Source of the DNA: Arenicellales bacterium
Lineage (GTDB): Bacteria > Pseudomonadota > Gammaproteobacteria > Arenicellales > JAJDZL01
Assembly (NCBI GenBank): GCA_958295885.1
Contig: OY282380.1
Coordinates: 1,178,001-1,242,000, forward strand
Length of the DNA: 64,000 nucleotides
Direction of reading: 5' to 3'
A model generated the notes under the pieces. The model saw only the letters and a program-made list of their open reading frames with translations, was not told the origin of the DNA and searched no databases. Numbering within the stretch: the stretch's first letter is position 1; each line of letters begins with the position of its first letter. Shown piece by piece: positions 45,166-64,000 of the stretch. A program made the translations under genes and the position numbers.

Positions 45166-46222
45166 TGGTTACCTCAGCAGTTTCAATTACGCCGATATCA
45201 TGAGAATGTGTGAGGTTTTACTCTATTCTGGTGATATTTTACCTTGGTGTAAAGTTAGCTTGGAGAACAGAAAATCATGTTTATAGCAGTAAATTAACGC
45301 ATTACATATATATTACCTTAGTTTCAGAATTCAAAATCGACTGAATTAGCGAGGCAGTGGCGCTGTAAAGGTTTTCACAATAATTTGGAGTTGACTGAAA
45401 TTTAAAAAACACGTTCTGAATCTCTCACAACCGTTCATTTGACGGCTTATTTTAGGAAATTCCAAACATTTGCCCGGTCAATTGCTATCGAACCGACGCG
45501 AATGCTTTTGAGCAGCTGGTAAAAACAGGCGGCAGCAGCTATTTTTCGGATTTTAGGCGCGCCATAGCCTCGCCAGCGTCATGGGCGGCGATCTTTTTGC
45601 GACCCAGCGGCGGCTAGGCTGCTTTGGGCGGGTGCCCGGTGAGGTGCTTTTTGCCGACTGGCGTAGAATTGGCTGGAAAACTGGCAAAATACTTGAAAAA
45701 ACGCAGAAAACAGCGTTAGTTTGGAGTAATAAATATTTCCGCCCTTTAATTTACTCAATCAAATCAAACTGTTTCTACCAGCGCAACTGCCTCGAAGACG
45801 ACTTGGTTGATGGGAATTGACTAGGGGCGGCAGTGTCACCGGGCATGCGTGATGGATGCCGATGGCAAGGTGGCCGACAATCAAAGTTTCGTTCACAGCG
45901 GTGACGGTCTGCCGCAGTTGATGCAACTAACATTTCACATCTTGGGCAATCAGTTCACGCATGCCATTTCAAAGCAGTTCGCTAAACCTGTCCAGATCAA
46001 ACAGGACTGGATTTTCATAGTGGCGCATTTATTTGTTGAATTTAAAGCGAACCGGGCCCTCGCTTTTTTTAGGCCTCCTCACGCACTGCTTTCGGCAATG
46101 ACCCCACAACCCTTCAGAATAATAAATGGTTTCGCCCATTTAAAGTTACCCTAAAAGGACATTTATATAAAATATATGTGATCAAATATCAGATTTATCA
46201 CTTTATAGTTCACGAGAAAGCA
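45166..46222. other. Non-coding region with mobile-element debris
   Basis: No intact gene is present. It contains copy 2 of the dispersed repeat (about 45,590-45,800) and, on the minus strand at 45,830-46,080, a broken protein-like frame (RHYENPVLFDLDRFSELL, stop, NGMRELIAQDVKC) of unknown origin. The rloA promoter should be at the right end. Confidence 0.45.
45590..45800 (-). repeat. Copy 2 of the diverged dispersed repeat
   Basis: The reverse complement of this segment aligns with 1119-1290. Landmarks are GAGGCAGTTGCGCT, TTTGATTTGATTGAGTAAAT, TTTTCTGCGTTTTT, CAGCCAATTCTACGCCAGTC and GGCAAAAAGCACCTCACCGG. Confidence 0.6.
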
Positions 46223-47515
46223 ATGTTAGTATCATTTAGCGTACAGAATTTTAGATCATTTGCGGATCAGCAAACTCTTTTATTGGTTGCCGGCGTTGAA
46301 GCAAGTAGAGACCCGAGCATTTCTTTTGGTTCCAGTAATTCTTATGCTCCCTACATCCTGAAATCTACTTGCCTGTTTGGACCGAACGGTTCTGGAAAAT
46401 CCAATTTTGTCGAGGCTTTGGCATTTTTTCAATATTTCGTAATTGCTTCAGCAAATAGCATTCAGGAAGGTGAAGAAATTCGAGTAACTCCATTTAAATT
46501 CAACAACGAATGGACAGGCAAACCAACTGAATTCGAAATAGTATTTATTCATGGTGAGAATTTGTTTCAATATGGATTTTCAGTAGATTCTGATCGCGTT
46601 TGGGGTGAGTGGTTATTTGCAAAACCAAATTTACCAAACACGCGAATTCGAAAGTTATTCGAGAGAGAATTTGACGCTGAGTCATGTGAATATTATTGGT
46701 ACATAAGTAAAAGATATGTAAAAGGCGAGAAAAAAGTCTGGAAAAACTCAACTCGAGACAATGCTCTGTTCCTTTCGACGGCAATTCAACTGAAGTCAAA
46801 ACCATTTAAAGACATTTTTGATTGGATTCAACAAAATCTGAAAATCATTGCACATGCTGACCGAATGTCTGGGAGCTTTACCGCCCATCAAATTTTGACA
46901 GAAGGTTGGACGAATAAAATTGGAAATTTATTGCAGTCAGTTGACACTGGGATCAAATCCATTCAAGTTGCTGAAAAAGTAGTAGAAATAAACAAATTTT
47001 TACAGAGTGATAGTAATTTACAGAAATTGTCCGACGAAATCAAGAAAAAGGGCGGTAATTTAATAATTTATGAAGTTAAAGCTTTTCACCAAGGAAAGGA
47101 TGGCAGTCTTGTGGAACTCGACTTGAAAGAAGAATCTGATGGAATTCAATTGATTTTCAATCTAGCAGGACCTTGGTTGGATGTTCTGACAAATGGTTAT
47201 ACGCTGGTTGTAGACGAACTTAACAACGGTTTACATCCAATTGCTTTGAAGTTTTTAGTGAATCTATTTCACGACCCTGACATCAACATGCAAAATGCCC
47301 AATTGATTTTCACGAGTCATGAAACATCAATTATGGCGAAAGGTTTTGTGCATCAGGATCAGGTGTGGTTTTTTGAAAAAGGAGAAAATGAGAATTCCAA
47401 GCTGTTTCCGCTTTCAGACTTTAAAGTCAAGGAATTAAGGACATTTCAGAAAGCATATAACGACGGTCGCTTTGGTGCTGTTCCCCGAATCAGCGAATTT
47501 GTGGATGCCGACTAA
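46223..47515 (+). CDS. rloA: RloA-like AAA/ABC-type ATPase (AbiLi component)
   Basis: The 430-residue ATPase starts at the ATG at 46223; a GTG 45 bases upstream is in frame but has a less typical N-terminus. The N-terminal strand MLVSFSVQNFRSF is the common start of the AAA_15/21-type (OLD/RecF-like) ATPases. Walker A is FGPNGSGKS (52-60). The SDGIQLIFNLAGP signature-like stretch and the Walker B VVDELNNGLHP follow in the C-terminal third. The sensor region is IFTSHETSIM. In known AbiL and related RloA/RloB pairs the ATPase acts with a TOPRIM-like partner to abort phage infection. The rloB gene overlaps the last 11 bases, so the pair is coupled. Confidence 0.88.
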   Translation: MLVSFSVQNFRSFADQQTLLLVAGVEASRDPSISFGSSNSYAPYILKSTCLFGPNGSGKSNFVEALAFFQYFVIASANSIQEGEEIRVTPFKFNNEWTGKPTEFEIVFIHGENLFQYGFSVDSDRVWGEWLFAKPNLPNTRIRKLFEREFDAESCEYYWYISKRYVKGEKKVWKNSTRDNALFLSTAIQLKSKPFKDIFDWIQQNLKIIAHADRMSGSFTAHQILTEGWTNKIGNLLQSVDTGIKSIQVAEKVVEINKFLQSDSNLQKLSDEIKKKGGNLIIYEVKAFHQGKDGSLVELDLKEESDGIQLIFNLAGPWLDVLTNGYTLVVDELNNGLHPIALKFLVNLFHDPDINMQNAQLIFTSHETSIMAKGFVHQDQVWFFEKGENENSKLFPLSDFKVKELRTFQKAYNDGRFGAVPRISEFVDAD

Positions 47516-48191
47516 AACAAACAAGTTAATTCGAAAACGGGCACGAAAGGAAAAATTTTTTCGATCTCCAGCATTTCGTCCTCTTCGTAAACGAGTGTTA
47601 GTCGTTTGCGAGGGAGGAAAAACTGAGCCCAATTATTTCCGTTTCTTAATTGCGAATCTGGGTTTAACTACAGCTGAGGTAAAAATTTGTGGGAAATCTG
47701 GTTCTGCCCCACAGAGTGTCGTTAAACATGGAAAAGAAATTTTAAAACTCGACCCCGATTACGAATTCATTTTTTTTGTTTTTGATAGAGACTCACACAC
47801 AGGTTATAAAGCTGCCATTCAATCGATGAAGAACATGAACTCGTCAAATAAGTCTTTTACTGCGATTACATCCAACCCCTGTTTTGAGATTTGGTTTTTG
47901 ATGCATTTTCGTGCGTCTACAGCACCATTTTCCAGTAGCGGGAATAGGTCGTCTTGTGACAATGTTATTTCAAAATTGAAGCAATGCTCTGGCTTCGGCA
48001 ATTACAAGAAAGAGGGTAAAGAATTCGCAAATTTATTGGAAAATCGGCGACAAGATGCAAAGAAACACTCTCGTCAAGTTTACAATAATTTGATGTCTAG
48101 TCGGTCTGTTAATCAGACTAAGCATGACCTGAATCCAGTGACATTAGTGCACGAATTAGTTGAAACTTTAGAACAGTTGGCTAAGAATTAA
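47505..48191 (+). CDS. rloB: RloB-like TOPRIM-type protein (AbiLii component)
   Basis: The 228-residue protein starts at the ATG at 47505, inside the end of rloA; the longer frame from 47472 would overlap further and is unlikely. After a very basic N-terminus it has VLVVCEGGKTEPNYFRFL with Glu36, the first TOPRIM acidic residue. FFVFDRDSHTGYKAA, with the Asp-x-Asp pair, lies in the middle. The block SNPCFEIWFLMHF is typical of RloB (PF13707). The C-terminal half is helical. It is the expected partner of RloA; the Glu and Asp residues predict a metal-dependent nuclease centre. Both genes together resemble the AbiL abortive-infection system. A function against phages here is inferred from family. 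Confidence 0.88.
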   Translation: MPTKTNKLIRKRARKEKFFRSPAFRPLRKRVLVVCEGGKTEPNYFRFLIANLGLTTAEVKICGKSGSAPQSVVKHGKEILKLDPDYEFIFFVFDRDSHTGYKAAIQSMKNMNSSNKSFTAITSNPCFEIWFLMHFRASTAPFSSSGNRSSCDNVISKLKQCSGFGNYKKEGKEFANLLENRRQDAKKHSRQVYNNLMSSRSVNQTKHDLNPVTLVHELVETLEQLAKN

Positions 48192-48235: not shown

Positions 48236-49075
48236 GGCAGCGCCAGCACCGTCTCCACTCCCACCCCGGGAATCGCCGTCAGGTCCACTCCAAGCAGATT
48301 CCACGGGATCATCTGCAGGTGCTGCTGCCATCATCGTCCTCGAGGCCTCTTAACTGGTTTCCTGTCCGCACCGCTGCCACCATAGCTGAATCATCATCAG
48401 TAATCTGCACCACCAGCAATTCGACCCGCGACAAAATGCGCACCTCCAACTGCTGCAGCTGACCACTGTAGTACTGATAACTCTCCAGTGCCTGCTGCAA
48501 GGCAAACAGACACTATTCTCGCCAGTTGCCCAGCAGCGTTGCCGCAATCTCAGACTCGCTCCTTTTCACCCGACGACCACACAGTTTCGCCAGCACCCGG
48601 GCATCCCGCTCACCTGCCACAACCGCCTCAATGATCGTCATCCCACTTTTGCCTGAAATGTCGCTCAGCACCGAATCCAGCTTCACATTCATCTGCTGCA
48701 GAGCTTTCTGCATATGCTGCACGCAAAGCGCCTGATCCCAGATCAGCCGCTGGCGGCTACACACATAACTGTGCAGCTCGCAGATCGCATCAGTCGGCCG
48801 GTGCGACTTCGAAAGCAGTCCCAGACTCATCAGCTGCTGCAGCCTCTGACAGTCCAACACATCCGATTTTCGACCGTCCGGACGCACCAGTCCGGCCGGA
48901 TTCACCAGCCACATGTCAAAACCTTGGGCATCAAGCACTTCATAAACCGGGATCCAGTAAACGCCGGTCGACTCCAGCGCCACCTGTATCACACCGTGCT
49001 TCTTAAGCCATTCAGCCATCGCCTGCAAATTCTCGGTGAAACCCAGGGCTTATTTATTGTCAAGCCAGCTGCTTG
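48236..49075 (-). pseudogene. IS110-family transposase, truncated
   Basis: The frame 48513-49028 carries most of the N-terminal DEDD domain: VALESTGVYWIPVYEVLDAQ with the catalytic Glu, WLVNPAGLVRPDGRKSDVLD with the Asp pair, and RQRLIWDQALCVQHMQKALQ. The start with the first catalytic Asp is missing. Further frames (48309-48500) give QQALESYQYYSGQLQQLE, and 48,240-48,300 the VDLTAIPGVGVETV block of the C-terminal domain. The remaining C-terminus, with the catalytic Ser region, is cut off at about 48,236. The same family is represented at 29.3-29.9 kb. The element is dead. It sits directly behind rloB. Confidence 0.85.
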
Positions 49076-49927: not shown

Positions 49928-51061
49928 CTATGGGCCGGGCCCAAACGCTTTCCATAAATCATCTGACAGTTTCTGTGCTCTTGTGATCTCATCACGTGTC
50001 ATAGATTCAGTGACAGTTTCTTTTGCATTCTTCATCAATTCACTGTTTCCTTGCGCAACAGCTATGCTAATCCACGCGTAGGCTTGTACATTATCCTTAG
50101 GTACGCCTTCTCCGTTGTAAAACATTACACCAAGATTAAACTGCGCCAGAGCGTATCCCTGTTCGGCGGCTTTCAGATACCATTGGACTGCGGTGCGGTC
50201 ATTTTCCGGTACGCCCCAGCCGTTTTCATACATTACTCCGAGGTTATACTGCGCAGTAGCGTGTCCCTGTTCGGCGGCTTTCAGATACCATTGGACTGCG
50301 GTGCGGTCATTTTCCGGAACCCCCTCGCCGTTGTCATACATAACCCCGAGGTTTTGCTGCGCCAGAGCGTATCCCTGTTCGGCGGCTTTCAGATACCATT
50401 GGACTGCGGTACGGTCATTTTCCGGTACGCCCCAGCCGTTTCCATACATTACTCCGAGGTTATACTGCGCAGTAGCGTGTCCCTGTTCGGCGGCTTTCAG
50501 ATACCATTGGACTGCGGTGCGGTCATTTTCCGGAACCCCCTCGCCGTTGTCATACATAACCCCGAGGTTTTGCTGCGCCAGAGCGTATCCCTGTTCGGCG
50601 GCTTTCAGATACCATTGGACTGCGGTACGGTCATTTTCCGGTACGCCCCAGCCGTTTCCATACATTACTCCGAGGTTATACTGCGCAGTAGCGTGTCCCT
50701 GTTCGGCGGCTTTCAGATACCATTGGACTGCGGTGCGGTCATTTTCCGGAACCCCCTCGCCGTTGTCATACATAACCCCGAGGGCAAACTGCGCAGCAGC
50801 GTAGCCCTGTTCAGCGGCTTTTTGAAACCAGTCAGCTGCAACAACGTAATTCTGCGGTACCACCTCGCCGTTGTAATACTTTAGACCGAGATTAAACTGC
50901 GCATAAGCGTAGCCCTGTTCAGCAGACTTCTTAACATCTTCCAACGAATCTGCAGCATGAACGTCAGATGACAACAATAAACAAAGCAATAAAGAACTGA
51001 ATGTTGATAAACATAAATACTTTCTTCGAAAAATGAAATTGGCGTTGCATTTGATTAGCAT
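49928..51061 (-). CDS. Secreted Sel1-repeat protein with 216-bp internal duplications
   Basis: From the ATG at 51061 the protein has 377 residues; the frame from 51130 includes an unlikely extension. A basic N-terminus and a hydrophobic segment (STFSSLLLCLLLSSDVHAAD) form a signal peptide. The mature part is about nine 36-residue Sel1 (TPR-like) units with the pattern A-Q-NLGVMY-NG-GVPEN and DRTAVQWYLKAAEQG. The region about 50,160-50,790 consists of three almost identical 72-residue (216-bp) blocks, which points to recent duplications. The C-terminal YAWISIAVAQGN and DEITRAQKLSDDLWKAF match the other two Sel1 genes of the window. Sel1 proteins act as scaffolds in signalling or host interaction. 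The role here is unknown. Confidence 0.88.
   Translation of the reverse strand: MLIKCNANFIFRRKYLCLSTFSSLLLCLLLSSDVHAADSLEDVKKSAEQGYAYAQFNLGLKYYNGEVVPQNYVVAADWFQKAAEQGYAAAQFALGVMYDNGEGVPENDRTAVQWYLKAAEQGHATAQYNLGVMYGNGWGVPENDRTAVQWYLKAAEQGYALAQQNLGVMYDNGEGVPENDRTAVQWYLKAAEQGHATAQYNLGVMYGNGWGVPENDRTAVQWYLKAAEQGYALAQQNLGVMYDNGEGVPENDRTAVQWYLKAAEQGHATAQYNLGVMYENGWGVPENDRTAVQWYLKAAEQGYALAQFNLGVMFYNGEGVPKDNVQAYAWISIAVAQGNSELMKNAKETVTESMTRDEITRAQKLSDDLWKAFGPGP
50160..50790. repeat. 216-bp higher-order tandem repeat in the Sel1 gene
   Basis: The junction GTAGCGTGTCCCTGTTCGGC occurs at about 50,255, 50,471 and 50,687, that is, at exact 216-base spacing. The blocks differ at only a few bases. Each contains two alternating 108-bp Sel1 units (GYALAQQ type and GHATAQY type). 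Copy number is likely to vary. Confidence 0.92.
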
Positions 51062-52047
51062 ATCGTCAACATTCAATGGATTTTTCTCTTGCCTGATCGT
51101 TCCTTGTTCCCAGCACAGGTAAATGTACAAACAGTGTCATTCACTTATGAGCACGCACTCGTCTTTATGGAAAGTTCCACTTTTTTGAATTCCGCCAACG
51201 TTACCAACACAAATTATGCATCCAAATTGCTAACTTAACACTTGAGTTCGGTTTGGTAATTTTACTACTCTAAAGTCAGCAGTTGTTTGCTGATTTTTTA
51301 CATCTCTTTGATTCCTCCGCAGAAATCGTGTGAGATTGGGGATCACAATACGCATATTGAGCAACCATTTGCCAGTCTGATACAGTGTCGTGATTTGGCT
51401 TGGTATTGACCATATTGTGTTAGGATGTTCAGAAATAAATGTTTTTCATCAATTCCAGTGTGTTTGCCATTGATGAATGCATAATCAACTTCAGCCAAAC
51501 CCCGTAGCTGACTTGACCGTCTCAATTGAATGCTCAAGGACGAACCTCTCGTCAATCAGGACGAAGTTTTCCTGATCGAATCCTACGAACGGTACGGACA
51601 CATTGAAATCTTCCTCAAGATGAGCCATCAAATCAGACTCTTGGCACTGATTGATCGAAAAACGCTCGCGGTGCAGCTTACACGGAAAAGGCAACAATGT
51701 CGATGTCTTCAAAGCTGTAAGGTGCATTAATGTGACCTGGCGGTTGTTGGAAGAACTGGCGCCGCTGCTGAAGGAGAATGTTGACCGTGGATTGAACAGT
51801 CGATTGTTGTATCAGAAACAGTTCAAAAGTAATGATTCAGTAATACCAAACAATTATGATTTAATGCTGGAACCAACGCAAAATCGAAATTCAGAAATTG
51901 GAATTGTTGAACAAAGACTATGAAGACGAAGTGAATGCAAGCCGTGTCTATAATCTTAGATTGGAGATCTTTACTTCCCTTCAGCTGATTGCAGCCGAAT
52001 GCTATTCGATTGAAATAGAGCGGATCTATAGATTAGGAAAATACAAC
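51062..52047. other. Intergenic region between Sel1 gene and vWA cassette
   Basis: No gene could be identified in this ~1 kb. It probably contains divergent promoters for the Sel1 gene (minus) and the vWA-ABC-FGE cassette (plus). Short frames at 51.5-51.9 kb on both strands resemble pieces of a decayed gene but match no family that I know. Confidence 0.4.
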
Positions 52048-54105
52048 ATGAAATATTTGATATTTGAAAGCAAAAAGAAATCAACAATAGCATTGCTGCT
52101 AGGTTTTGCTTCAGCACTGCTTCTTGTTTCTGCTCAAGCAAATCTGCCGGATGTTGACTGTTTTGATGATCCACAGAGCTTGTGCATCGTTGAAACGACA
52201 AAACTCCCGCTGCGAGTTATCGTGAAACCACAGTCAAACGTATATTTCGACAAAGACGAGACAGGACCTCAAATCAGATCCAACGTCCCGTCGTTCGAGG
52301 TGTTTCACGTATTTCAGATGGACGATGTTTCGTATGACGACAGCTTCAACGCGACTGGGTGGTTTCATGTCGGTGCCTCGCATGAATATCCAGAAGGCTG
52401 GATGCGAGCTGAAGACGTAGTTCCATGGCGGCAGGCACTCGCGTTGGCGTTCACCAATCCCGGCCCGTCGGAACGTCAACCTGTCGTAATGTTCGACAGT
52501 TACCAGTCCTTGGATGACACGATTGAGGAATTCGATTCCGGCGCAGCAAGTCCTGTCGACTTTTATGATCAGGTTCTTTCCGCGGATGTGCCTGATGGTG
52601 TTGTATCGCGTGAAGTCAACAGTTGGATCGACATTGATCAGACTTTTTATCTGATGCCTATTCTTGATCACGCAGATTTTTCCAGTCTGCGTGGAGACGG
52701 CGACATGCGGGCTGTTCAGCTTGCTGCGCTGACGAACCAAGCCCGGTCCGAACAAACCACAGCCTGTGACTTGCGGGATGAATATTCAGGGGAGTGCATT
52801 AGCGAACAAAGCGGCGGTTTTTCGTCACAACTCGGAATGGATGCAATTTTCGTAATTGATTTGACAGCTTCGATGGGACCGTATATTGATGCCGTTCGAA
52901 CTGCAATTCAGGAGAGTGCTCAGCTTCTCAGCGAGGATTTCGCTTCAGAGCAAACTCGTCTTCGTTTCGGACTTATCGGCTATAGAGATGTTGTCGAATT
53001 GTCCCCGGGAATCGAATTTGTTTCTCGCAATTTCACTCCTGATTTACTGGACCCTTTGGAGTTTGCCGAGCTGCTGAACGATGGGAGTGATGCCGGCGGC
53101 AGGCCCACAGTTATAGAAAGCCAAATCAGCAGCGGAGATTTTGCCGAAGAGGTGTTTGCAGGCTTATACGATGCGATTCACTCAAATTGGTCGCAGGATG
53201 CCGCAAGACTCATTATCTTGATCGGAGACGCTTCAGGCCATCCGATTGGACATGAAAAAAATACAACGGGCCTAGACGAGAAATCAATCCGCGAAATGGC
53301 CGATCACAATAATGTGCACATTGCATCGGTGTATGTCGGATTTGAAGGTTCCCCTGATTACGATATCGCGAGAACACAGTTTGAGACCGTCTCCGCGGGT
53401 GATGCGGAATCGAGCATCGCTTTCGCAGTTGCTACCGGATCGCAGACATCGCTTGAAAAAAGTCTGCGCGACGTCATTGAGAGCGTTACGGGATTCATTT
53501 CAAAAGGTAATTTTCAGGCCATTTTGTCTGACAGCACTGATCCGTCGGACGCAACAGGACAAGCGATTCTCAGCGCAGTACGCGCAGCGTTTGTAGATTA
53601 CCTCGGTAGTGACGCCAAGCCGCCATCAAACATCGTAGCCTGGGCGCTTGATCGAGATCCAACGGATTACTCGAAGAAAGCGTTCGACATCAAAGTTATG
53701 TTAGGACGCAAAGACATGGAAGAGCTGAAAGATCTGCTGCAGGGGTTGACGGAACTGCTGGATACGGGTACTGCGAGTTCTACCTTTGTTTTCGGCCAGG
53801 TACAAAGTGGTGCGACCGCGTCGTCTTATGATCTTGGAATTGAGAATACGGACGTGATCGCCAAAAGTGAACTGGTTCCAAAATGGATCTCAAATTTGCC
53901 TTACAAAAGCGAAGTATTGACCTTCACGCTGGAAGAATTTACAAACTCCTCAGCCGACGACCGCAGCCGCTTTGAAACTCGATTGAACTCGCTGATTGAT
54001 TTTTACGACGAGGCTTTGAATCGCCCAGATGGCTGGATTCTGCTGAACGAACAGGCTAATATAGATGATCGAATTTACATGCTTGATATTGCAAATCTTC
54101 CTTAG
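52048..54105 (+). CDS. Secreted von Willebrand factor A (vWA) domain protein with SH3-like N-terminus
   Basis: The 685 residues start at the ATG at 52048 (AGGA upstream), giving a clear signal peptide (KKKSTIALLLGFASALLLVS, ending at AQA). Next is an SH3-like region (about 38-115; LPLRVIVKPQSNVYFD and GWMRAEDVVPW). The vWA domain spans about 265-485: MIDAS motif DLTASMG at Asp271, the FGLIGYRDV strand, and LIILIGDASGHP. The last ~200 residues are unrecognised. It heads a cassette; an ABC ATPase starts 22 bases downstream, then an FtsX-like permease and an FGE-fold protein. A periplasmic adhesion/sensor role with the ABC complex is inferred. The longer frame from 51898 lacks a signal peptide and is unlikely. 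Confidence 0.85.
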   Translation: MKYLIFESKKKSTIALLLGFASALLLVSAQANLPDVDCFDDPQSLCIVETTKLPLRVIVKPQSNVYFDKDETGPQIRSNVPSFEVFHVFQMDDVSYDDSFNATGWFHVGASHEYPEGWMRAEDVVPWRQALALAFTNPGPSERQPVVMFDSYQSLDDTIEEFDSGAASPVDFYDQVLSADVPDGVVSREVNSWIDIDQTFYLMPILDHADFSSLRGDGDMRAVQLAALTNQARSEQTTACDLRDEYSGECISEQSGGFSSQLGMDAIFVIDLTASMGPYIDAVRTAIQESAQLLSEDFASEQTRLRFGLIGYRDVVELSPGIEFVSRNFTPDLLDPLEFAELLNDGSDAGGRPTVIESQISSGDFAEEVFAGLYDAIHSNWSQDAARLIILIGDASGHPIGHEKNTTGLDEKSIREMADHNNVHIASVYVGFEGSPDYDIARTQFETVSAGDAESSIAFAVATGSQTSLEKSLRDVIESVTGFISKGNFQAILSDSTDPSDATGQAILSAVRAAFVDYLGSDAKPPSNIVAWALDRDPTDYSKKAFDIKVMLGRKDMEELKDLLQGLTELLDTGTASSTFVFGQVQSGATASSYDLGIENTDVIAKSELVPKWISNLPYKSEVLTFTLEEFTNSSADDRSRFETRLNSLIDFYDEALNRPDGWILLNEQANIDDRIYMLDIANLP

Positions 54106-54127
54106 AATCGACCGATAGCAGACCGTT

Positions 54128-54856
54128 GTGACCATTTTACAGGTGCGCAATATGTCAAAGGCATTTGTTTCCAATGCCTACCGATTCGACTTATGGATTC
54201 CTTCATTTTCGCTTGAAGCCGGATGTTTTTACGGTCTAGTGGGTAAAAGCGGTAGCGGAAAGAGCACTTTGCTTGACATGCTGGCTATGGTTTCCGCTCC
54301 CACTTCCGTAGAAAAATTCGAGTTTTCATCGTCCAGCGGGCGCGTTGACATCGCCGCATTGATTGCATCTTCGGATGATCATGCGATTTCACAGTTGAGG
54401 CTGAAGAGTTTTGGTTACATTCTGCAGTCAGGCGGACTTTTTTCATTTCTAACTGTTCGAAGAAATTTAGAACTGCCTCTGCGATTGTCTGGACGTGCTG
54501 CCAGAGTAGGGGAATTGGAGGAAATGACTCGCCGATTTGAAATTGAAGAACACCTTGACAAGTATCCGTCCACTCTATCGGGCGGGCAAAGACAAAGGGT
54601 CAGCATTCTCAGAGCACTGTGTTTGTCACCGGCCATCGTACTGGCGGATGAGCCCACTGCATCGGTCGACGAAAACATGGCGGACTCTATCGTTGAAGAA
54701 CTGAAATCACTCGCTGCAGATCATGGATCGACCGTACTGATGGTTTCTCACGATACCGATCTGATCGAAAAGTTCGCTGACAGAGTATTCACACTTCGTC
54801 CGGAACTCGTAGCAGAGAATAAAATTAGGTCAGAAATTCAGGTGGAAAACATCTAA
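54128..54856 (+). CDS. LolD/MacB-type ABC ATPase of the vWA cassette
   Basis: This 242-residue ATPase belongs to the group that works with FtsX-like permeases (LolD, MacB, FtsE). The GTG start at 54128 is kept because the first strand TILQVRNMSKAF belongs to the ABC fold; the ATG at 54152 would cut it. Walker A is GKSGSGKSTLLDML, the Q-loop lies in SFGYILQSGGLFSFL, the signature is LSGGQRQRVSILRAL, Walker B is IVLADEPTASVD and the switch His is in MVSHDTDLIEKF. It is followed 18 bases later by the permease gene. Such complexes are mechanotransmitters that pull or release proteins at the outer face of the membrane. This fits the secreted vWA and FGE-fold partners. Confidence 0.92.
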   Translation: MTILQVRNMSKAFVSNAYRFDLWIPSFSLEAGCFYGLVGKSGSGKSTLLDMLAMVSAPTSVEKFEFSSSSGRVDIAALIASSDDHAISQLRLKSFGYILQSGGLFSFLTVRRNLELPLRLSGRAARVGELEEMTRRFEIEEHLDKYPSTLSGGQRQRVSILRALCLSPAIVLADEPTASVDENMADSIVEELKSLAADHGSTVLMVSHDTDLIEKFADRVFTLRPELVAENKIRSEIQVENI

Positions 54857-54874
54857 GCGCACTGTAGATGACTG

Positions 54875-56770
54875 TTGGACAGGTCTATCCAAAATAAAGC
54901 CGCTGGCAATAAGAATAGCGTCGTTCTGCATGTCGCTGCAAACGATTTGATTCACGAGTTTCTTTTGTCGTTATGTTTGGTGCTTTCCGTTATCGCTGTC
55001 CTGACGCCGATATTGCTTTTGGCGTCAGTCAAAGTTGGATTTATTGATCGGCTGCGGCAGAATTTCATAAACGATCCAACGTTTCGAGAAATTCGCCCGG
55101 GCTCCGCCGACTTGCGAAGTGAAGAACTTTTTGAACAAATCAGAACGTGGCAAGGCATCGCCTATGCGATTCCAACCGTAATGATGAACCCTCGGGAGGT
55201 GGCAGTGCAAGTGACCAATTCGGATGGTCGCTATCGGGACGAAGTACGGTTGCTGCCCAGCACCGCGGATGACCCGCTGCTGCACCGCCTGAAAGGGGAG
55301 CCACCCAAAGGTGACGGTGTTGTCGTTACTGAGAATTTCGCTCAGTCAGCTGGCATTGCGATAGGCGACAGTTTCACCATTACAGTAACTCGAATTGAAA
55401 ATGATCAGCGAAAACGAGTAAAGCTGGATGTTGCAATCAGCGGTCTCATTCCTTCAGACGCGTTGCCAGTGCCAACGATTCTCGGAGTTCCGGAATTGGA
55501 AAAACACGTGGAAAATTTTCGAGCCGGAGTTGCGGTTCCCGATCGAGGTTGGGAAGGTATGGAATCGGATCCACGGCTGGCTTATTCGTTCATCGCTGCG
55601 GCGGCGCCTGAACCATTGGGCGAACTGATCAAGTCAACATTGGCGATTCGCGTTGGCACTTCAAAATCCGAGCAAATCAGCGATGTCGATTTAGCTGTGC
55701 TGATTGGCTCGGCTGGGCCTGTTGAAACAAATGTTCCGGCAAGCGAATACTGGATGCTGACACCTGGAAACTCGGCCTACTCCAGACGCGATCTGACTGA
55801 AGCGAATGATGTGCTCAGAAACTCAGACGCTTTCGCTCTAGGCATCCATCCTCCGCGGGAAATGCAAATTCTTGGTCAAACCATATCGGCATTTGGATTG
55901 CCGGAAGCACTGCATCTGGATGAAGAGCTAGGAGAAGTTGAAGGTGCTAGAAGCCTTGGGAATTCGTTTCGACTGAATGATCGAATTGTTTTACCGGAGT
56001 CGCTTAGAAGTGCGTATCTGGAAGCGGGCAGTCCCGACCGTATCAATGTAATCGTTGAATTTGCACGCCAGGAGTCAACGGAACGGCTTGATCTGATCAT
56101 GCGTCCTTCTGGATTTATCCGCGGGGACTCGGCATTGGTCAGTGGTGTATTTATGGCGATGCTTGAACGCGGCCGTCAAGTCAAGCTGAGTTTTGATGCT
56201 TCAAATAGAAAAATTGTTGAACAGTCCTCAGGATTCCGTGGTTTTCGCGTGATCGGCGCCAATATTGACATCATCCCTGAGATCGTTAGGAAATTTGAAT
56301 CAGAAGGCATTAAAGTTCGGGCGAAATCCAGTCAGATTCTCAAACTGCAGCGGCTGGAACGCAGTTTGAACATCCTTGTACTGGTGGTTAGTGCAGTGGC
56401 GCTGATCGGTGGCTATTCCATTTTAACCTCAAGCTTTTTTGCCAACGTGCAACGCAAAAAAGTGAACTTTGCTACGATGCGTCTGATTGGCATGTCCAAA
56501 GGTTTGATATTTCGGATCCCCATTGCACAGGCAATCATCATTTCCAGTCTTGGTTTTCTTCTTTCGATTTGCTGCTATCTGCTTATTTCCTACATCCTGA
56601 ATCAGTTCATCGCAGTTGAATTGAACTTCGACGGCCAGCTGTCAAAACTGTACCTTTCTCACTACGTATTTGCAGGAATTTTTGTAATCGCGGGTGCATG
56701 CATTGCGTCTTTAGCCGCGTCACGCGCGGCAACGCAAATTGATCCCGCGGAAGCATTGCGTTCGGACTGA
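54875..56770 (+). CDS. FtsX-like ABC permease of the vWA cassette
   Basis: The 631-residue membrane protein has one transmembrane helix near the N-terminus (about residues 33-55) and a large extracytoplasmic MacB-like region of about 440 residues. Three helices are near the C-terminus (about 495-520, 545-575 and 600-620). The cytoplasmic loop FANVQRKKVNFATMRLIGMS and the end AASRAATQIDPAEALRSD match the FtsX/LolC domain. The frame starts at a TTG (54875); no better ATG keeps the first helix, so the start is uncertain. It overlaps the long frame of the following gene but ends 10 bases before that gene's ATG at 56781. It should form a homodimer with the ATPase. Confidence 0.88.
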   Translation: MDRSIQNKAAGNKNSVVLHVAANDLIHEFLLSLCLVLSVIAVLTPILLLASVKVGFIDRLRQNFINDPTFREIRPGSADLRSEELFEQIRTWQGIAYAIPTVMMNPREVAVQVTNSDGRYRDEVRLLPSTADDPLLHRLKGEPPKGDGVVVTENFAQSAGIAIGDSFTITVTRIENDQRKRVKLDVAISGLIPSDALPVPTILGVPELEKHVENFRAGVAVPDRGWEGMESDPRLAYSFIAAAAPEPLGELIKSTLAIRVGTSKSEQISDVDLAVLIGSAGPVETNVPASEYWMLTPGNSAYSRRDLTEANDVLRNSDAFALGIHPPREMQILGQTISAFGLPEALHLDEELGEVEGARSLGNSFRLNDRIVLPESLRSAYLEAGSPDRINVIVEFARQESTERLDLIMRPSGFIRGDSALVSGVFMAMLERGRQVKLSFDASNRKIVEQSSGFRGFRVIGANIDIIPEIVRKFESEGIKVRAKSSQILKLQRLERSLNILVLVVSAVALIGGYSILTSSFFANVQRKKVNFATMRLIGMSKGLIFRIPIAQAIIISSLGFLLSICCYLLISYILNQFIAVELNFDGQLSKLYLSHYVFAGIFVIAGACIASLAASRAATQIDPAEALRSD

Positions 56771-56780
56771 GGCTGTTCCG

Positions 56781-59700
56781 ATGTTTGGGTTCAGCTTCAA
56801 TCAGTTGAAATTAATTCAGTTGACCGCGCTGGCACTGTTTGCACTGTGGTCCATAAGTGCGGCTGCCGCTGAATCCTGTCAGTCAATCAAGCTGTCCGGC
56901 AAGTCAATTGAGCGTTGGTACAATCCGCACCCGTCTCCCAATGATTTCAAGCTGCCTATGTCGCTGGGGATGGCGCTTGTGTTTTCCCCTATTCCACTTG
57001 GCACTAAGGGTTTGTACGGTGATGAAAAGTCTACGTACGTGATGGGCAGCGCTACGCCGAGACTATTTGAAACCAACCTTGAAGTTCGCGTCGGATCATC
57101 AATCAGTCAAGGCGGTGAGGCTCGATTTCTGTTCGGCAAGTACGAGATAACCAAGGCTCAGTATGTGGCGGTAATGGGTAGCGGCGCACTGGATGCAGGG
57201 ATAAAAATTCTAGTGGAGCGGTCACGCGATCCAAGAGCGCGCAAAGTTCTCTCAAAATTCATATCCGGACCGTGCAAAGGGTTATTAACACAGGCAATTT
57301 ATGATTTTCTGTCAGAACCCCTGACGTTTCTCAGCTACCGAGATTACATCGAATTTCTTGACACATACAACCTTTACTGCATTTCGCGAAATGACTGCAG
57401 GCGCAAACTTTCTGAACTGGGTCCAAACAAGGACGTACCTGGTTTCGTGCGTTTGCCCGCGGAGCATGAATGGGAGTTCGTCGCCCGGGGCGGGCAGGAG
57501 TTTGCGGCCGGCGGAATGAGCAAAACCGAATTTCAAACTGACCTGCCTAGAACAAGACCTGGGAAAACCATCAAGCATCACGCTCATGTCGGTTCGGATC
57601 CATCGCGTCCTTTGCCGATTGGCTCGCGCGAACCTCTATTCGGCATCTATGACATGCTCGGCAATGCGCAGGAGCTGATGTTGAACCCGTTTACAGCCGA
57701 AAATGGATTTGGTGCCGTAGGGGCGTATGTCGCTCGAGGCGGACACTTTCGTTTAGCTCCGAAGGAGCTTCGCGTTTCAAGGCGAGTTGAGCTTCAGGCA
57801 TTCCGCTTGGACGAATCGACAAATTCATTTGTCATTCAGTATTTTCCCCTGACCGGCATTCGAACAGTCATCGGATATCCAGTGATCGGAGCAGCCCAGC
57901 GATTGGGTGACGCCAGTCTGGTTCAAGATTTTGTGGAGAATTATGAACCTCCTGGTGAAGCGGGGGACATTGCAGGCGCTACGCCCGCAGATGCGCGCGA
58001 TTTAGGCGTGCTTGGAGATAAAGGCATTTCAACAAACGAGGAACTTTCCAGTGATGATGAAATAGATTATTTCAAGGTGTCTTTGAGGAGTTATTCGACA
58101 ATTGCCGTAACGGTGTCATCGGACGCATCTATTCTGTATGAAGTTACAAATGAGTCCCAAGAAACCGTCTCGAAGGGCAAGTCTGGTGGCAGCATTCGAA
58201 AATCTGCTGCCGTGCTGCCAGGAGACTACTGGATCAAACTGACCCCGGCAAACCGGCTGAAAACTGAAAAGCGATACCGCGTGAACATCAGTCGCAGTCT
58301 GGAACCTGACACAGGAGTTGGAAAACTTGATCCGGCGGAACTGAAAAACGCTCGGTCGCTGAGCCAGTCACTAAGGTATTCAGGGTATGTCGGAAGCGGA
58401 GATACAGTAGACACTTATCCTATCCGTGACGATTCGCGCGTTGGCGGCATTGAACTGAAAGTCGACAGCACTGCCGCACCAGTTGAACTGACCTATGTGG
58501 ACGAGAAACTCAATGTCGTGCGACGGGCAAAAGCTAATCCAGCCAGCGGGGAGCTGGTTATGAATCTGAACTCAGATTACGGACGTCGGGGTTTTGTTCA
58601 GATTTCAGCCGCGGCCAACTCTGCGACCACCTACAACCTCAACATTTCAGTTAAAGAACCGTACAGCAGGATTTTCAAAAAGAGCATCGTTCCCTCCGTG
58701 AGTTCGTACGGTGCCGAAAACGTACATTTCGAAGGCAATCTTGATCGAGCTCTGCCGGCGCTATATTTGCCGATTCAAATCAATGTACCAAAGATTCTCA
58801 AGCTTGAATTGACTGATCTCTCAGCGGATGTAGACCTTAAAGTTCTGAAATCCGACAAAACTGCGATTGCATCTTCGCACGTGCGCTCAGGTACATCGCC
58901 CGAATTCTTTTCAAAACCGGTGGATGCCGGAGTTTATTTTGCCGAGGTACGGCTGAAGTCCACGCGTGACATTTCGCAGTTCAAGCTGCTCTATACAACG
59001 GAAAAATTACCTAACAATAACTTCACTTCATATTCTGGTACTGCGAACCGCTCATCCGCTAAGGATTGGGGAATATTGGGTCTTAGTGGAATTTCTGATG
59101 CCTTACTGCTTGATGAAATTTCGAGTTACTTTAGATTTGAAATCCGAGGTGCAGACAAACATGTACGAATTGAATTAAAAGTTTCGTTTTCATTTGATCC
59201 CGCGAGTCCTGATCTGTATCTTGAAGATCACCAAGGAAACTTAATAGCAAGGTCAATTAACAATCCCGAAGGAGCAATACTGGATCTAACATTATCGTCA
59301 GGAACCTACTATCTCAGACTTGAGCGAGTCAGCCGCGCTTCATTGGTGAGTCTTTACCTGATTTCAGTAGTCGCCAGTTCTTCAACGACTGACCCTGATT
59401 TTTCAAGATTCGGAAATCTGGTGGAATTTCATAGAGATTTTCAGATTTATCGTGATGGAAACAACTGCACTCTGGTTACCGTCGCGAAGCGATTTAGTCC
59501 TAGTACAGGATGGCGTTCAACAACACCTTATTTTGGAATAGGCGTTGAGCGGAACAAGGATACAGTCAGCATTTGGATGGAGAACACATCCCCCGAGACC
59601 AGATATGATTTGTATCGCAGCGGGTCCGTTAGAGCGGACATTCTTGGTTACGGCAATATTCCAGTTGATTGGTCAGCCAACTCCTATCTACTACAGCCGT

Positions 59701-59891
59701 TAGATTCAACAGGAAGAGTAAGCATCCTTGCAATTGAAGGTTTTATTAAAGGAAGAGCGTTGGTCATTTCCGGAAGAACGCCTTCCAATCAAATGACGCG
59801 AATTGAGTACTCACTATTGGGATACAAGATAGCTGCTCAAAGAATCAATCAATTGTGTGGTGCCCTTGCTGATTGGATTTGGCAACAGTAG
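56781..59891 (+). CDS. Secreted SUMF1/FGE-fold protein with multiple PPC-like beta domains
   Basis: From the ATG at 56781 the protein has 1036 residues; the upstream extension to 56739 overlaps the permease and is unlikely. The signal peptide ends near AAAAES. Residues ~40-350 show the formylglycine-generating-enzyme (FGE-sulfatase) fold: GKYEITKAQYVAVMG, FVRLPAEHEWEFVARGG, GIYDMLGNAQEL and AYVARGGHFRLAPKELRVSR. The active-site cysteine pair of true FGE is not present there, so this is likely a binding or structural version. The rest is a string of bacterial pre-peptidase-like beta domains (for example DEIDYFKVSLRSYSTIAVTV, PGDYWIKLTP). It closes the four-gene vWA-ABC-FtsX-FGE cassette. The partner or ligand is unknown. 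Confidence 0.85.
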   Translation: MFGFSFNQLKLIQLTALALFALWSISAAAAESCQSIKLSGKSIERWYNPHPSPNDFKLPMSLGMALVFSPIPLGTKGLYGDEKSTYVMGSATPRLFETNLEVRVGSSISQGGEARFLFGKYEITKAQYVAVMGSGALDAGIKILVERSRDPRARKVLSKFISGPCKGLLTQAIYDFLSEPLTFLSYRDYIEFLDTYNLYCISRNDCRRKLSELGPNKDVPGFVRLPAEHEWEFVARGGQEFAAGGMSKTEFQTDLPRTRPGKTIKHHAHVGSDPSRPLPIGSREPLFGIYDMLGNAQELMLNPFTAENGFGAVGAYVARGGHFRLAPKELRVSRRVELQAFRLDESTNSFVIQYFPLTGIRTVIGYPVIGAAQRLGDASLVQDFVENYEPPGEAGDIAGATPADARDLGVLGDKGISTNEELSSDDEIDYFKVSLRSYSTIAVTVSSDASILYEVTNESQETVSKGKSGGSIRKSAAVLPGDYWIKLTPANRLKTEKRYRVNISRSLEPDTGVGKLDPAELKNARSLSQSLRYSGYVGSGDTVDTYPIRDDSRVGGIELKVDSTAAPVELTYVDEKLNVVRRAKANPASGELVMNLNSDYGRRGFVQISAAANSATTYNLNISVKEPYSRIFKKSIVPSVSSYGAENVHFEGNLDRALPALYLPIQINVPKILKLELTDLSADVDLKVLKSDKTAIASSHVRSGTSPEFFSKPVDAGVYFAEVRLKSTRDISQFKLLYTTEKLPNNNFTSYSGTANRSSAKDWGILGLSGISDALLLDEISSYFRFEIRGADKHVRIELKVSFSFDPASPDLYLEDHQGNLIARSINNPEGAILDLTLSSGTYYLRLERVSRASLVSLYLISVVASSSTTDPDFSRFGNLVEFHRDFQIYRDGNNCTLVTVAKRFSPSTGWRSTTPYFGIGVERNKDTVSIWMENTSPETRYDLYRSGSVRADILGYGNIPVDWSANSYLLQPLDSTGRVSILAIEGFIKGRALVISGRTPSNQMTRIEYSLLGYKIAAQRINQLCGALADWIWQQ

Positions 59892-60462
59892 TCAATGCAG
59901 GAATTTAGGACGAACATTGTCTCGAGATTCTATATCCATGATGGATACGTTATGGAGTATAAGCCAACTAGTTCAGGTAGAGCTAGATGCTACACTGATC
60001 AAACTCTAAGACCGGAAAGGACGTGGGAGAAATCCGAGTGATGACTACTTGGAGCAATTCCTTTAGTTTCGGTCGAGAACTACAAACATGAAACTCAGCA
60101 ACAAAATTAAACCAGCGCCAAAAGTCGAAGTTCGACCACATTCCCATCAGCCAAAACACTCTGAATTGCGGGAAGAAATCAACATTAACACGCCTTACCC
60201 GAAAAACTCGCCACATCCGTCTTAGGCCAAGTTCGGGTCGTCGAATCCGAAAACTCTTGAAAATAAATTTGCCTGGCCCAGACCTGATTTTAGGTTCAGA
60301 GGCATATTGTGACTATTGTCTAAAATTCTTAATATTTTGGAAATAACGCCTCAATAGTCAGTTCAATTGAATCAATCACCGCAGTTCGAATTGCTGAATG
60401 AATGCACTAAAGTCGCAGAATCAATGCTAGTAATCATACATCAGGCGACAATTTGAGAAAAT
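59892..60462. other. Intergenic region downstream of the cassette
   Basis: No gene is supported. The right part (from about 60,365) is similar to the 3' flank of the first Sel1 gene (TGAATGAATGCACTAA, TTTATTTCGTA), so the flank was duplicated with the gene. Confidence 0.5.
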
Positions 60463-60957
60463 TTATTTCGTATTACGTGTGGGGCCAAACGCTTTCCATA
60501 AATCTACTGAAAGATACTGTGCTCTTGCAATCTCATCACGTGTCATAGAATCGGAGACAGTTTCTTTAACATACTTCCAAAATTTACTGTTTCCTTGCGC
60601 AACAGCTACGCTAATCCACGCATAGGCTTGTACATTATCCTTCGGCACACCTTCTCCATTATTAAACATGACACCGAGATTAAACTGCGCCTCAGCGTGT
60701 CCCTGTTTGGCGGCTTTCAGATACCATTGGACGGCGGTGTGGTCATTTTCTGGAACGCCCCGGCCGTAGTCGTACATCAAACCGAGGATATACTGTGCCT
60801 GAGCGTCTCCCTGTTTAGCAGACTTCTTTACATCTTCCACCCAATCATCGGCAAGGACGTCAGATGACAACAATAAAAAAAGTAAATAAAGACTGAATAT
60901 TGCTAGGAAAAAATTTTTCCTTCGTAAAATTAAAAATGTTTTAGAGTCAATTAGCAT
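60463..60957 (-). CDS. Short Sel1-repeat secreted protein
   Basis: This 164-residue paralogue starts at the ATG at 60957. It has a signal peptide (RRKNFFLAIFSLYLLFLLLS, ending near LADD) and a conserved SVEDVKKSAKQGDAQAQYIL-like junction. Only about three Sel1 units follow (GLMYDYGRGVPENDHTAVQW; GVMFNNGEGVPKDNVQAYAW). The tail AWISVAVAQGNSKFW with MTRDEIARAQYLSVDLWKAF matches the other copies. It could be a collapsed version of the longer gene, as repeat deletion would give this form in frame. It lies on the minus strand directly after the cassette, so Sel1 genes face the cassette from both sides. Confidence 0.85.
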   Translation of the reverse strand: MLIDSKTFLILRRKNFFLAIFSLYLLFLLLSSDVLADDWVEDVKKSAKQGDAQAQYILGLMYDYGRGVPENDHTAVQWYLKAAKQGHAEAQFNLGVMFNNGEGVPKDNVQAYAWISVAVAQGNSKFWKYVKETVSDSMTRDEIARAQYLSVDLWKAFGPTRNTK

Positions 60958-61450
60958 ATCGTCAACATTCAATGAATTTATTCGCTTGTCTGATCGTTCC
61001 TTTATGCCACTAAACGGAGTCTCATTAATATCCGCAACAACAGTGGTTTAGTATTCTAGCAAATAGAAGGCAAATTTAATCTGTTCTCAAGTCGAGTTGT
61101 TGCCGAAAGTAGTACCAGAAGAGGAGATCATGCGACTGCCTAGTCGATATCGCTGACTTCAATTTGTCCGAATAATTCCCTTTTTTATGCGATCAATATT
61201 CCTTTAATTTTTCGTATTGCTAAATAAAGCGTCTCTACATTTTTTGGAGCAACACCCCTACACCAACTATCAACCGTTCTATGCATGGACACACTTAACG
61301 TTGTGTTTAAACCTCGACAGATGATATCAAGTCTGCGTAATTTGCTATTTCAAATCTAAATATTTTGATCGAATATTCTAATAGAATAGACACTATGCGT
61401 TGTTTCTAAAAATCGAAGCAACAAGCTATTCATACAACAGTGAGTTGATC
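60958..61450. other. Intergenic region between Sel1 gene and lipoprotein remnant
   Basis: No gene or RNA element recognised. It holds the upstream region of the minus-strand Sel1 gene and of the plus-strand lipoprotein pseudogene. Confidence 0.4.
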
Positions 61451-61858
61451 ATGCAAATATTCCGAACGGTAGAGTTTCTCTTAATTTTATAGGCTTGTGC
61501 CTTGGTGCTTTCTTCTTGTGGGTCCGCAGCAAATAGAGCCCAATTCGAAGAAGCTTTAGCCTCTTGGATTAACAAGGACGAAAGGGAACTTTTGCATGTC
61601 TGGGGAATACCAGATGATGTCTATCAAATATCGGAAGACGAGAAGGCTTTGAATTACGTAAATCAATCTAGTTTTACTATTCCGGGAACGGCTCCGAGCT
61701 ACACTACAAACTATATTGGCAATACTGTGTATATGACAACCAATCCCGGCTCGCTTCTCAGACGATTAATTTTCACTGCAAGGTCGATTTCTTTGTTAAG
61801 CAAAACGAATTTTACAGTTTTCGATGGGAAGGTAACGGGTGCAGGTAGCGCGAATTAG
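61451..61858 (+). pseudogene. Small lipoprotein gene with an in-frame stop inside the signal peptide
   Basis: From the ATG at 61451 the frame reads MQIFRTVEFLLIL, a TAG at 61490, then ACALVLSSCGSAANRAQFEE and 100 further residues to 61858. Without the TAG this would be a normal lipoprotein precursor: basic/hydrophobic leader and lipobox LSSC. The rest has a WINKDERELLHVWGIPDDVY segment typical of small bacterial lipoproteins that contain an SmpA/OmlA-like N-terminal turn. The later TTG/GTG starts at 61502 would give too short a leader. Suppression, a sequencing error or a real nonsense mutation are all possible. Confidence 0.6.
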
Positions 61859-62430
61859 TCTCAATTCTTGAAGTATCGAATTGGATATATCCAGATTGTC
61901 TGACTCATTCGTCCGATTACTTATATTTGGGTTCCGCGAATTGGCGAAAATCTGAAAATAATTTGAATAACTAAGGAATTTCCGGTCACGCAACGTTACT
62001 CTACAGAAATTTGGAATTCGATGATGTGTTTATTGCCGTTTTCCGCGCCGGAATTCTAGCATCGGGCAAAGCGTACTCAAGATCTTAAACTACATGCATG
62101 TTCTAAAAATATTCTAGGACCTTATAACCAAGAACAGTGCATTATGTTGCGATTGCTCAATGCTAATTCAAACATCCTACCGTATTGTTTTATCTGAAAT
62201 GCCTGTAAAAGCAAAAATGAATATTCAATCACGAGAGTTTCGGAGCTTGTTTTCTAACTGGTTAATTGTGACGTTGCTTGTGAGGCATGCTCTAAGCACG
62301 GCCGGAGGCAAATTGATAAATACTAACGGATCTACCAAACCAAGAGAATACTACTGCGTTCAAGCGCATAGTGCTCAATTAATTGACCTCCATACCCGAC
62401 ATAACGCTCCGCTAATCTAGAGCTAACGAT
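61859..62430. other. Intergenic region upstream of the third Sel1 gene
   Basis: A plus-strand frame at 62160-62420 (86 codons) is open but has no recognisable motif and no ribosome-binding site, so I do not call it a gene. I looked for attC-like or CRISPR-like structure here and found none that is convincing. Confidence 0.4.
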
Positions 62431-63456
62431 ATGCATATCATCCGAAGTACTTGTTTTAGTTTAAGAATGAAAATTTTGTTCCTACCAATATTCAGTTTTT
62501 TATTGCTTAATTTGTTGTTGTCACCTAACATTCATGCCGAAGATTCGTTGGAAGATGTAAAGAAGTCTGCTGAACAGGGAGACGCTGAGGCGCAGTTTAG
62601 ACTCGGAGTAATGTATGAAAACGGCGAGGGAGTTCCCGAAAATGACCGCACCGCAGTCCAATGGTATCTGAAAGCCGCCGAACAGGGAATCGCTGAAGCG
62701 CAGTATAACCTCGGTCTAATGTATGACAACGGCGAGGGGGTTCCCGAAAATGACCGCACCGCAGTCCAATGGTATCTGAAAGCCGCCGAACAGGGAATCG
62801 CTCCGGCGCAGTATAACCTCGGAGTAATGTATGCCAACGGCGAGGGAGTTCCCGAAAATGACCGCACCGCAGTCCAATGGTATTTGAAAGCCGCCGAACA
62901 GGGAATCGCTCCGGCGCAGTATAACCTCGGAGTAATGTATGCCAACGGCGAGGGAGTTCCCGAAAATGACCGCACCGCAGTCCAATGGTATCTGAAAGCC
63001 GCCGAACAGGGAGCCGCTTCGGCGCAGTTTAACCTCGGTAATATGTATTCCAACGGCGAGGGAGTTGCGGAAAATGATCGCACCGCAATCCAATGGTATC
63101 TGAAAGCCGCCGAACAGGGAAACGCTGAGGCGCAGTATAACCTCGGAGTAATGTATGCCAACGGCGAGGGGGTTCCCGAAAATGACCGCACCGCAGTCCA
63201 ATGGTATCTGAAAGCCGCCGAACAGGGAGCCGCTTCAGCGCAGTATAACCTCGGTGTAATGTTTTACTACGGAGAAGGCGTACCTAAGGATAATGTACAA
63301 GCCTACGCGTGGATTAGCATAGCTGTTGCGCAAGGAAACAATGATTCTTGGAAGAATGCGAAAGAAACTGTCGCCGATTCTATGACGCGTGATGAGATTG
63401 CAAAAGCACAGAAACTGTCAGATGATTTATGGAAAGCGTTTGTGTCTACGCGTTAA
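62431..63456 (+). CDS. Secreted Sel1-repeat protein
   Basis: The protein has 341 residues from 62431, or 329 from the ATG at 62467, which starts directly at the signal peptide (MKILFLPIFSFLLLNLLLSP, ending at IHAED). The mature part contains about eight Sel1 units of 36 residues (A-QYNLGVMYANGEGVPEN, DRTAVQWYLKAAEQG), two of them almost identical in DNA. The end, GVPKDNVQAYAWISIAVAQG and MTRDEIAKAQKLSDDLWKAF, is shared with the two minus-strand copies. The N-terminal junction DSLEDVKKSAEQG is also shared. It should be secreted to the periplasm and act as a scaffold. Its long antisense open frames come from the repeat composition and are not genes. Confidence 0.9.
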   Translation: MHIIRSTCFSLRMKILFLPIFSFLLLNLLLSPNIHAEDSLEDVKKSAEQGDAEAQFRLGVMYENGEGVPENDRTAVQWYLKAAEQGIAEAQYNLGLMYDNGEGVPENDRTAVQWYLKAAEQGIAPAQYNLGVMYANGEGVPENDRTAVQWYLKAAEQGIAPAQYNLGVMYANGEGVPENDRTAVQWYLKAAEQGAASAQFNLGNMYSNGEGVAENDRTAIQWYLKAAEQGNAEAQYNLGVMYANGEGVPENDRTAVQWYLKAAEQGAASAQYNLGVMFYYGEGVPKDNVQAYAWISIAVAQGNNDSWKNAKETVADSMTRDEIAKAQKLSDDLWKAFVSTR

Positions 63457-63567: not shown

Positions 63568-64000
63568 TTATTCAATGGGAAGTCCTAGAAATGCACCGCG
63601 ATTCCTCTCTGTCACCGCCCTCATAAGCGTTGCATAGCGCTCACTTCCATACTCTGATATAAATCCGATGCTGTGAACTCGAACAATTGCTGACTTGGTC
63701 TTTGAACTGAAATTCATGCTGTCCAGAGTATCAATGACTGAATCGTAAGAAGAACCCGTAAAATCGTCTCCTAAAATGTAAATTGAGATCTTGTCAGATT
63801 TGCGAGCGTAAAGACTCAGCGCGGTCTGGAGACCTTCTACTGGACTGCTGTTGGAAAATTCGCGCCAGTTTCGCAATGTTCTTTTTACATTTCTACGACT
63901 GACTGATGTGTCTGGGAGCCATCTTCGCTTAGTGCCGCTAAACAAATGAATCCCATTGTCATTCATGACCTGAAATCCTCTTACAGTGGGATGAATCTCA
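63568..64000 (-). CDS. vWA-domain-like protein (partial, N-terminus outside window)
   Basis: The frame remains open beyond the right edge: before the ATG at 63966 the codons continue EIHPTVRGFQV, so the real start lies outside. The visible ~144 residues fit the second half of a von Willebrand A fold. They show VEGLQTALSLYARKSDKISI with YILGDDFTG, then SIGFISEYGSERYATLMRAV and a final GAFLGLP. The DDFTGSSYDSVIDTLD segment replaces the usual GD strand end of vWA domains. The MIDAS Asp would be upstream, outside the window. As a second vWA gene so near the vWA-ABC-FtsX-FGE cassette it may belong to the same locus, but the opposite strand and the 3.7 kb gap leave this open. Confidence 0.7.
   Translation of the reverse strand, partial: EIHPTVRGFQVMNDNGIHLFSGTKRRWLPDTSVSRRNVKRTLRNWREFSNSSPVEGLQTALSLYARKSDKISIYILGDDFTGSSYDSVIDTLDSMNFSSKTKSAIVRVHSIGFISEYGSERYATLMRAVTERNRGAFLGLPIE

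Follow-up and report, generated by a model that had tools for sequence, protein, structure and literature searches.

Profile comparisons firmly indicate that all four proteins encoded at 52048-59891 of the window (the whole 64,000-nucleotide stretch of Arenicellales bacterium DNA that was analyzed) are homologs, in the same order, of the PpkA periplasmic region, TagT, TagS and TagR of the T6SS. What stays new is that this cassette occurs without the kinase, the T6SS and TagQ.

Four intact plus-strand open reading frames, listed here with their stop codons, make up the cassette: a secreted vWA protein of 685 aa (52048-54105), a TagT-like ABC ATPase of 242 aa (54128-54856), a TagS-like FtsX/LolC-type permease of 631 aa (54875-56770) and a TagR-like secreted FGE/PPC protein of 1036 aa (56781-59891). 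They are separated by 22, 18 and 10 bases; the positions, strand and spacing given in the initial annotation were all confirmed, and its view of one operon-like cassette is supported by the tight packing and by the order kept among relatives. The cassette was compared with that of the nearest relative, a MAG labelled Albidovulum (L054; proteins 56-70% identical, the vWA protein ~70%), and identity was 71-86% at codon position 2 and 34-40% at position 3. Because position 2 is far better conserved than position 3, the frames are not chance ORFs, and they appear to be genuine genes under strong purifying selection.

The host genome is a single contig of 4.42 Mb and is 97.6% complete. Permease relatives were absent from all five other searched genomes of the host genus and present in 2 of the 109 genomes of the order; this patchy presence indicates that the cassette is accessory. 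About 4 kb upstream lies an abortive-infection system, a pair of AAA ATPase and RloB-like genes (46178-48191, +) matching AbiLi at 6e-89 and AbiLii at 7e-27, and an IS110-type transposase fragment is also found upstream (48513-49028, -). Sel1-repeat genes of one family, with near-identical repeat units, stand on both sides of the cassette (49928-51130, -; 60463-60972, -; 62431-63456, +). From position 63568 to past the window end, a separate and unrelated minus-strand locus (L050 5568-14237, equal to G000:C1:1241568-1250237) encodes two vWA proteins, a MotA/TolQ/ExbB protein, a PEGA+FGE protein (677 aa) and proteins of 763 and 435 aa.

Homology to PpkA-TagT-TagS-TagR and domains of the four proteins

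The reference profiles were built solely from Pseudomonadaceae T6SS loci with the order DotU-IcmF-TagF-PppA-PpkA-TagT-TagS-TagR-TagQ; these loci were identified by gene content and came from genomes in the same family as Pseudomonas sp. TTU2014-080ASC rather than from PAO1. A vWA-profile search of 198 genomes of that family returned two groups of frames, the first mostly vWA frames of ~650-700 aa and the second mostly of 1000-1190 aa with E-values of ~1e-183 to 1e-193. The long frames that were fetched had a protein-kinase motif on the N-terminal side of their vWA region; the order kinase+vWA, ATPase, permease, FGE was found in 12 of 13 fetched Pseudomonadaceae PpkA loci. Locus L178 reads DotU, IcmF, TagF, PP2C, kinase+vWA, ATPase, permease, FGE and a Gly-zipper lipoprotein of TagQ type, and thus matches the H1-T6SS order tagF-pppA-ppkA-tagT-tagS-tagR-tagQ (tag gene numbers: PMC6657622).

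The T6SS-PpkA-only profile matched the window vWA protein at 1.6e-56 over profile positions 12-618 of 618, and the TagS-only profile matched the permease at 1.1e-51 on both sides of an insert. In the scanned genome stretches, the TagT-only profile matched the cassette ATPase at 2.6e-58 and the next-best ABC ATPase at 9.5e-24, and the TagR-only profile matched the cassette FGE protein at 1.2e-12 and the next-best FGE protein at 0.0025. The TagR match was the weakest of the four and was confined to the FGE core; TagR has no counterpart of the PPC-like part. The initial annotation had claimed that no characterized system with this composition is known, with the proviso that a match to a described system ends the claim; the claim fails because H1-T6SS PpkA-TagT-TagS-TagR has the same composition and order. 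The cassette resembles the P. aeruginosa H1-T6SS PpkA-TagT-TagS-TagR(-TagQ) module in that the vWA region, the ATPase, the permease and the inactive FGE protein are homologous and arranged alike. However, its vWA protein lacks a kinase domain, its genome has no detected sheath gene, PF00069 kinase or TagQ, its permease has a ~215-aa insert and its FGE protein carries PPC-like domains.

The vWA protein comprises a signal peptide, a beta-rich N-terminal domain (~45-135), a vWA domain with DxTxS (258-522) and a conserved C-terminal domain. Its best Pfam match was below threshold (VWA_4, E 0.044), and a PDB sequence search gave no match; the vWA domain is too divergent for Pfam detection. Nevertheless, the structure model showed a clear integrin-I/vWA fold in the vWA region (Z ~16, residues 258-522), and D271, T273 and S275 of DxTxS were invariant or nearly so across 60 homologs, bearing out the signal peptide-bearing vWA protein with a MIDAS motif that had been annotated. 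One row from the plasmid collection was left out of the alignment used for structure modeling. It starts with the signal peptide where PpkA has its Ser/Thr kinase domain, and on sequence grounds it can firmly be regarded as a homolog of the periplasmic half of PpkA, minus the kinase domain. In PpkA a vWA domain serves as sensor, and the C-terminal domain of PpkA is an interaction partner of TagR (PMC3224232). An Avibacterium screen has linked a biofilm phenotype to a vWA gene, which may or may not belong to the cassette family.

The ATPase matched Pfam ABC_tran at 4.5e-25 and contains Walker A GKSGSGKST, signature LSGGQ, Walker B IVLADEP and SHD motifs. The permease matched Pfam FtsX at 2.3e-08 and has four TM helices; the ~215-aa insert (about 236-452) enlarges its periplasmic part. 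Its structure model (pLDDT 90.5) was LolC/LolE/MacB-like (Z 20-24), and FtsX and BceABS structures were also matched. Because the model matches LolC/LolE, MacB and FtsX, we placed the pair in the type VII ABC class, as annotated initially; the FtsX domain, four TM helices, large periplasmic domain and LolD-like ATPase of this class were all found. In FtsEX, MacB and LolCDE, ATP binding and hydrolysis shift the periplasmic part. The pair shares permease fold and topology and a LolD-like ATPase with these systems, whereas identity is ~15%, both proteins score far under the LolD and LolC/E cut-offs (NCBIfam lolCE on the permease, 3.1e-09) and the periplasmic partners are different. The secondary structure of the insert looks repetitive; however, profile-profile comparison did not support an origin by duplication (probability 1.6%).

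In the fourth protein, Pfam detected FGE-sulfatase (1.9e-15) and PPC (9e-09, two stretches); the FGE/SUMF1 fold spans residues 114-338 and is followed by the PPC-like domains, in agreement with the initial description of this secreted protein. A PDB sequence search gave weak FGE-fold matches only. The protein carries RGGHFRLAPKELRVSRR where the RGGS..C....C motif is expected and has no cysteines there; the catalytic cysteine pair of formylglycine-generating enzyme is also absent from the relatives in which the motif was located. We therefore consider it a binding fold, predicted to be a catalytically dead FGE/SUMF1 fold, and the suggestion that both periplasmic partners are of binding type gains support. 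Enzyme activity should not be assumed.

Conserved neighborhood, clades and missing components

A class-wide search with the permease was positive in 26 of 369 genomes, and every locus fetched in this way contained vWA, ATPase and permease genes in the same order. When named genomes were scanned with the vWA alignment, 568 relatives were confirmed, and the 80 best were retained. The neighborhood set comprised 99 non-redundant loci, 90 of them assessable, and the vWA-ATPase-permease order was kept in 88 of the 90, with 62 of these continuing with FGE; as the loci were chosen by vWA or permease similarity, these frequencies describe relatives of the window and not genomes at large. The conserved co-occurrence that the initial annotation had put forward as a check was thus observed, and chance adjacency is ruled out by the order. 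SrfB and SrfC lie upstream of the cassette in 38 relatives among the 99 loci. Some loci contain one or two further vWA genes from the same family next to the first (L055 7676-9031, L056 11019-12398, L065 6568-8622, L110 11121-16271). The SrfBC-linked version was also seen on the Klebsiella plasmid pKPN-065 (L024), and PLSDB lists 113-114 Klebsiella plasmid records with relatives of its vWA protein and permease. A scan of viral contigs with the permease gave no relative, and viral carriage was rejected as an explanation.

We placed the window in a vWA tree of 61 rows (quick search, unrooted, SH-aLRT support only). The T6SS PpkA proteins formed one branch and the type lacking FGE another, each with 100% support. 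A further branch, also supported at 100%, contained the 20 rows of the long-permease type, including the window; permeases of this clade are ~600 aa long with a mid-domain insert, which the window permease shares. SrfBC loci were scattered across several branches. The window and L054 share a long branch (1.83 changes per column); therefore, their place inside the clade is unsure and their function may have shifted. The kinase was absent from all 20 clade members, and the clade stands apart from T6SS PpkA, indicating that its absence is a trait of the lineage rather than a sign of recent decay. Like other members (Sedimenticola, Azospirillum, Desulfacinum, Desulforhopalus, Thiotrichaceae, Succinimonas), the window has a kinase-less vWA protein, a long permease and FGE. 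Downstream of these, most others encode a Gly-zipper lipoprotein resembling TagQ, a further, coiled-coil lipoprotein and/or an S41 peptidase, whereas the window and L054 loci do not. A PDZ-S41 peptidase gene recurs downstream in this clade (L068 16460-17569, L070 17101-18219 and others) and is a candidate output enzyme.

In a 2013 study of host-associated Deltaproteobacteria, srfB and srfC adjoined tagQ, ppkA and, mostly, tagR, tagS and tagT, and all but one of these bacteria lacked T6SS machinery (PMC3608642). The SrfB-SrfC-linked loci, from pKPN-065 and from these Deltaproteobacteria, share with the window a kinase-less vWA protein, ATPase, permease and SUMF1/FGE protein in the same order. 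In contrast, the window locus lacks SrfB, SrfC and the H339 gene and belongs to another clade. Our search of mainly open-access literature retrieved no publication describing the long-permease type or a kinase-less PpkA module, and no experiment on any kinase-less member.

No PF00069 kinase was matched in the whole genome at 1e-5 (control positive in 10 of 14 genomes), and no kinase motif was present in any of the 102 relative loci examined. The T6SS sheath VipB/TssC was absent from the genome at 1e-20, the control being positive in E. coli. TagQ gave no match in the window or L050 and at best E 0.086 in the genome; the profile recovers TagQs left out of it at 1e-41 or better. The second clade lipoprotein reached at best E 0.014 by profile in the genome, and neither lipoprotein nor the S41 peptidase was found downstream of the cassette at 59891-62430. 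In addition, the cassette contains no Fha or PppA gene, and SrfB and SrfC profiles did not match within the window. VipB was not enriched among permease carriers (6 of 26 versus 64 of 343; Fisher p 0.60), in a carrier list that was drawn with the window permease and so under-samples the family.

Proposed function and alternatives

We propose, on an evenly balanced judgment, that the cassette is a kinase-less PpkA-TagT-TagS-TagR homolog acting as an ABC mechanotransmitter with envelope-confined output. The TagT-like ATPase and TagS-like permease would together constitute an inner-membrane mechanotransmitter of type VII (LolCDE/MacB/FtsEX class), in which the large periplasmic portion of the permease would shift upon ATP binding and hydrolysis. 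The natural partners of this portion would be the vWA and FGE/PPC proteins, and its shift may change the mutual hold of these secreted proteins and an outer-membrane or peptidoglycan ligand. The output may serve to maintain or repair the envelope locally, or to regulate a lipoprotein or periplasmic enzyme, for example the lipoproteins and S41 peptidase encoded after the cassette in relatives. A transmembrane connection links the Pseudomonas vWA domain to the kinase, and the state of this domain leads to phosphorylation and then T6SS assembly; TagQ is needed in P. aeruginosa. Lacking a kinase, the core would be restricted to acting outwards, within the periplasm, or to signaling via an unlinked receiver. 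The output is most likely within the envelope, because the vWA protein is here a free periplasmic protein and the PF00069 search detected no kinase; this is an argument from absence, and the receiver could be a histidine kinase or a kinase of another family than PF00069. More tentatively, kinase-less vWA-TagT-TagS-TagR may be a widespread free-standing envelope machine with mechanical or proteolytic output, onto which a kinase was added in the T6SS sensor; the window, with four genes and no TagQ, would then be its most stripped form.

Signaling to a kinase in trans deserves consideration, since type VII ABC pairs drive sensor kinases, as BceAB drives BceS, and BceABS is among the fold matches. 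The sensory side would survive loss of the fused kinase, and vWA-TagRST could signal to an unlinked cytoplasmic histidine or atypical kinase. We consider this unlikely, given that the genome lacks a PF00069 kinase and that none of the 102 loci has a kinase motif nearby. A LolCDE-like machine, extracting or exporting a lipoprotein or other substrate from the inner membrane via the secreted vWA and FGE/PPC proteins to the outer membrane, is doubtful, though somewhat less so. The closest solved folds of the permease are LolC and LolE, with the sub-threshold lolCE match, and most clade relatives have two lipoprotein genes after the cassette; however, the fold also fits FtsX and MacB, and both lipoprotein genes are missing at the window locus and, by profile, in the genome. 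In P. aeruginosa, TagST modulates T6SS activation (PMC6657622), and a transported substrate was not found in the literature examined.

The missing kinase, TagQ and VipB, together with the patchy distribution in the genus and order, might suggest a relic, that is, a TPP module decaying after loss of these parts and of the T6SS. This is very unlikely: four open frames under apparent strong purifying selection against L054 largely refute decay, and the whole clade is kinase-less and apart from T6SS PpkA. The machine for surface adhesion or inter-bacterial conflict suggested initially has little to commend it in our estimate, at a lower probability still. The vWA/MIDAS fold has integrin-like and pilus-adhesin matches, PPC and FGE-type folds are binding folds, and SrfB/SrfC stand beside 38 relatives, SrfABC being described as cytotoxic in Xenorhabdus (PMC6950479). 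Against this, the locus encodes no surface-anchoring signal or secretion partner, and the closest characterized homologs are periplasmic regulators. The phage-defense check attached to that suggestion also came out negative: beyond generic ATPase models, PADLOC had no match for the vWA and FGE proteins and one weak, sub-threshold match for the permease (0.037), none of them meaningful, and a phage-defense system was rejected.

The kinase-less relatives bear on how TagQRST reports outer-membrane damage to PpkA. TagQRST-PpkA senses such damage in P. aeruginosa, and its local activation mechanism has been stated as unresolved (PMC11881912). Hundreds of relatives keep the sensory side, with no kinase at the examined loci and no T6SS in most of the checked carrier genomes. 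The homology corrects the annotation of genes labelled merely 'vWA domain', 'ABC transporter' or 'SUMF1/EgtB'. In addition, kinase-less hosts open the ABC-vWA-FGE core to study apart from the secretion machine, and thereby the question of what this core senses and does.
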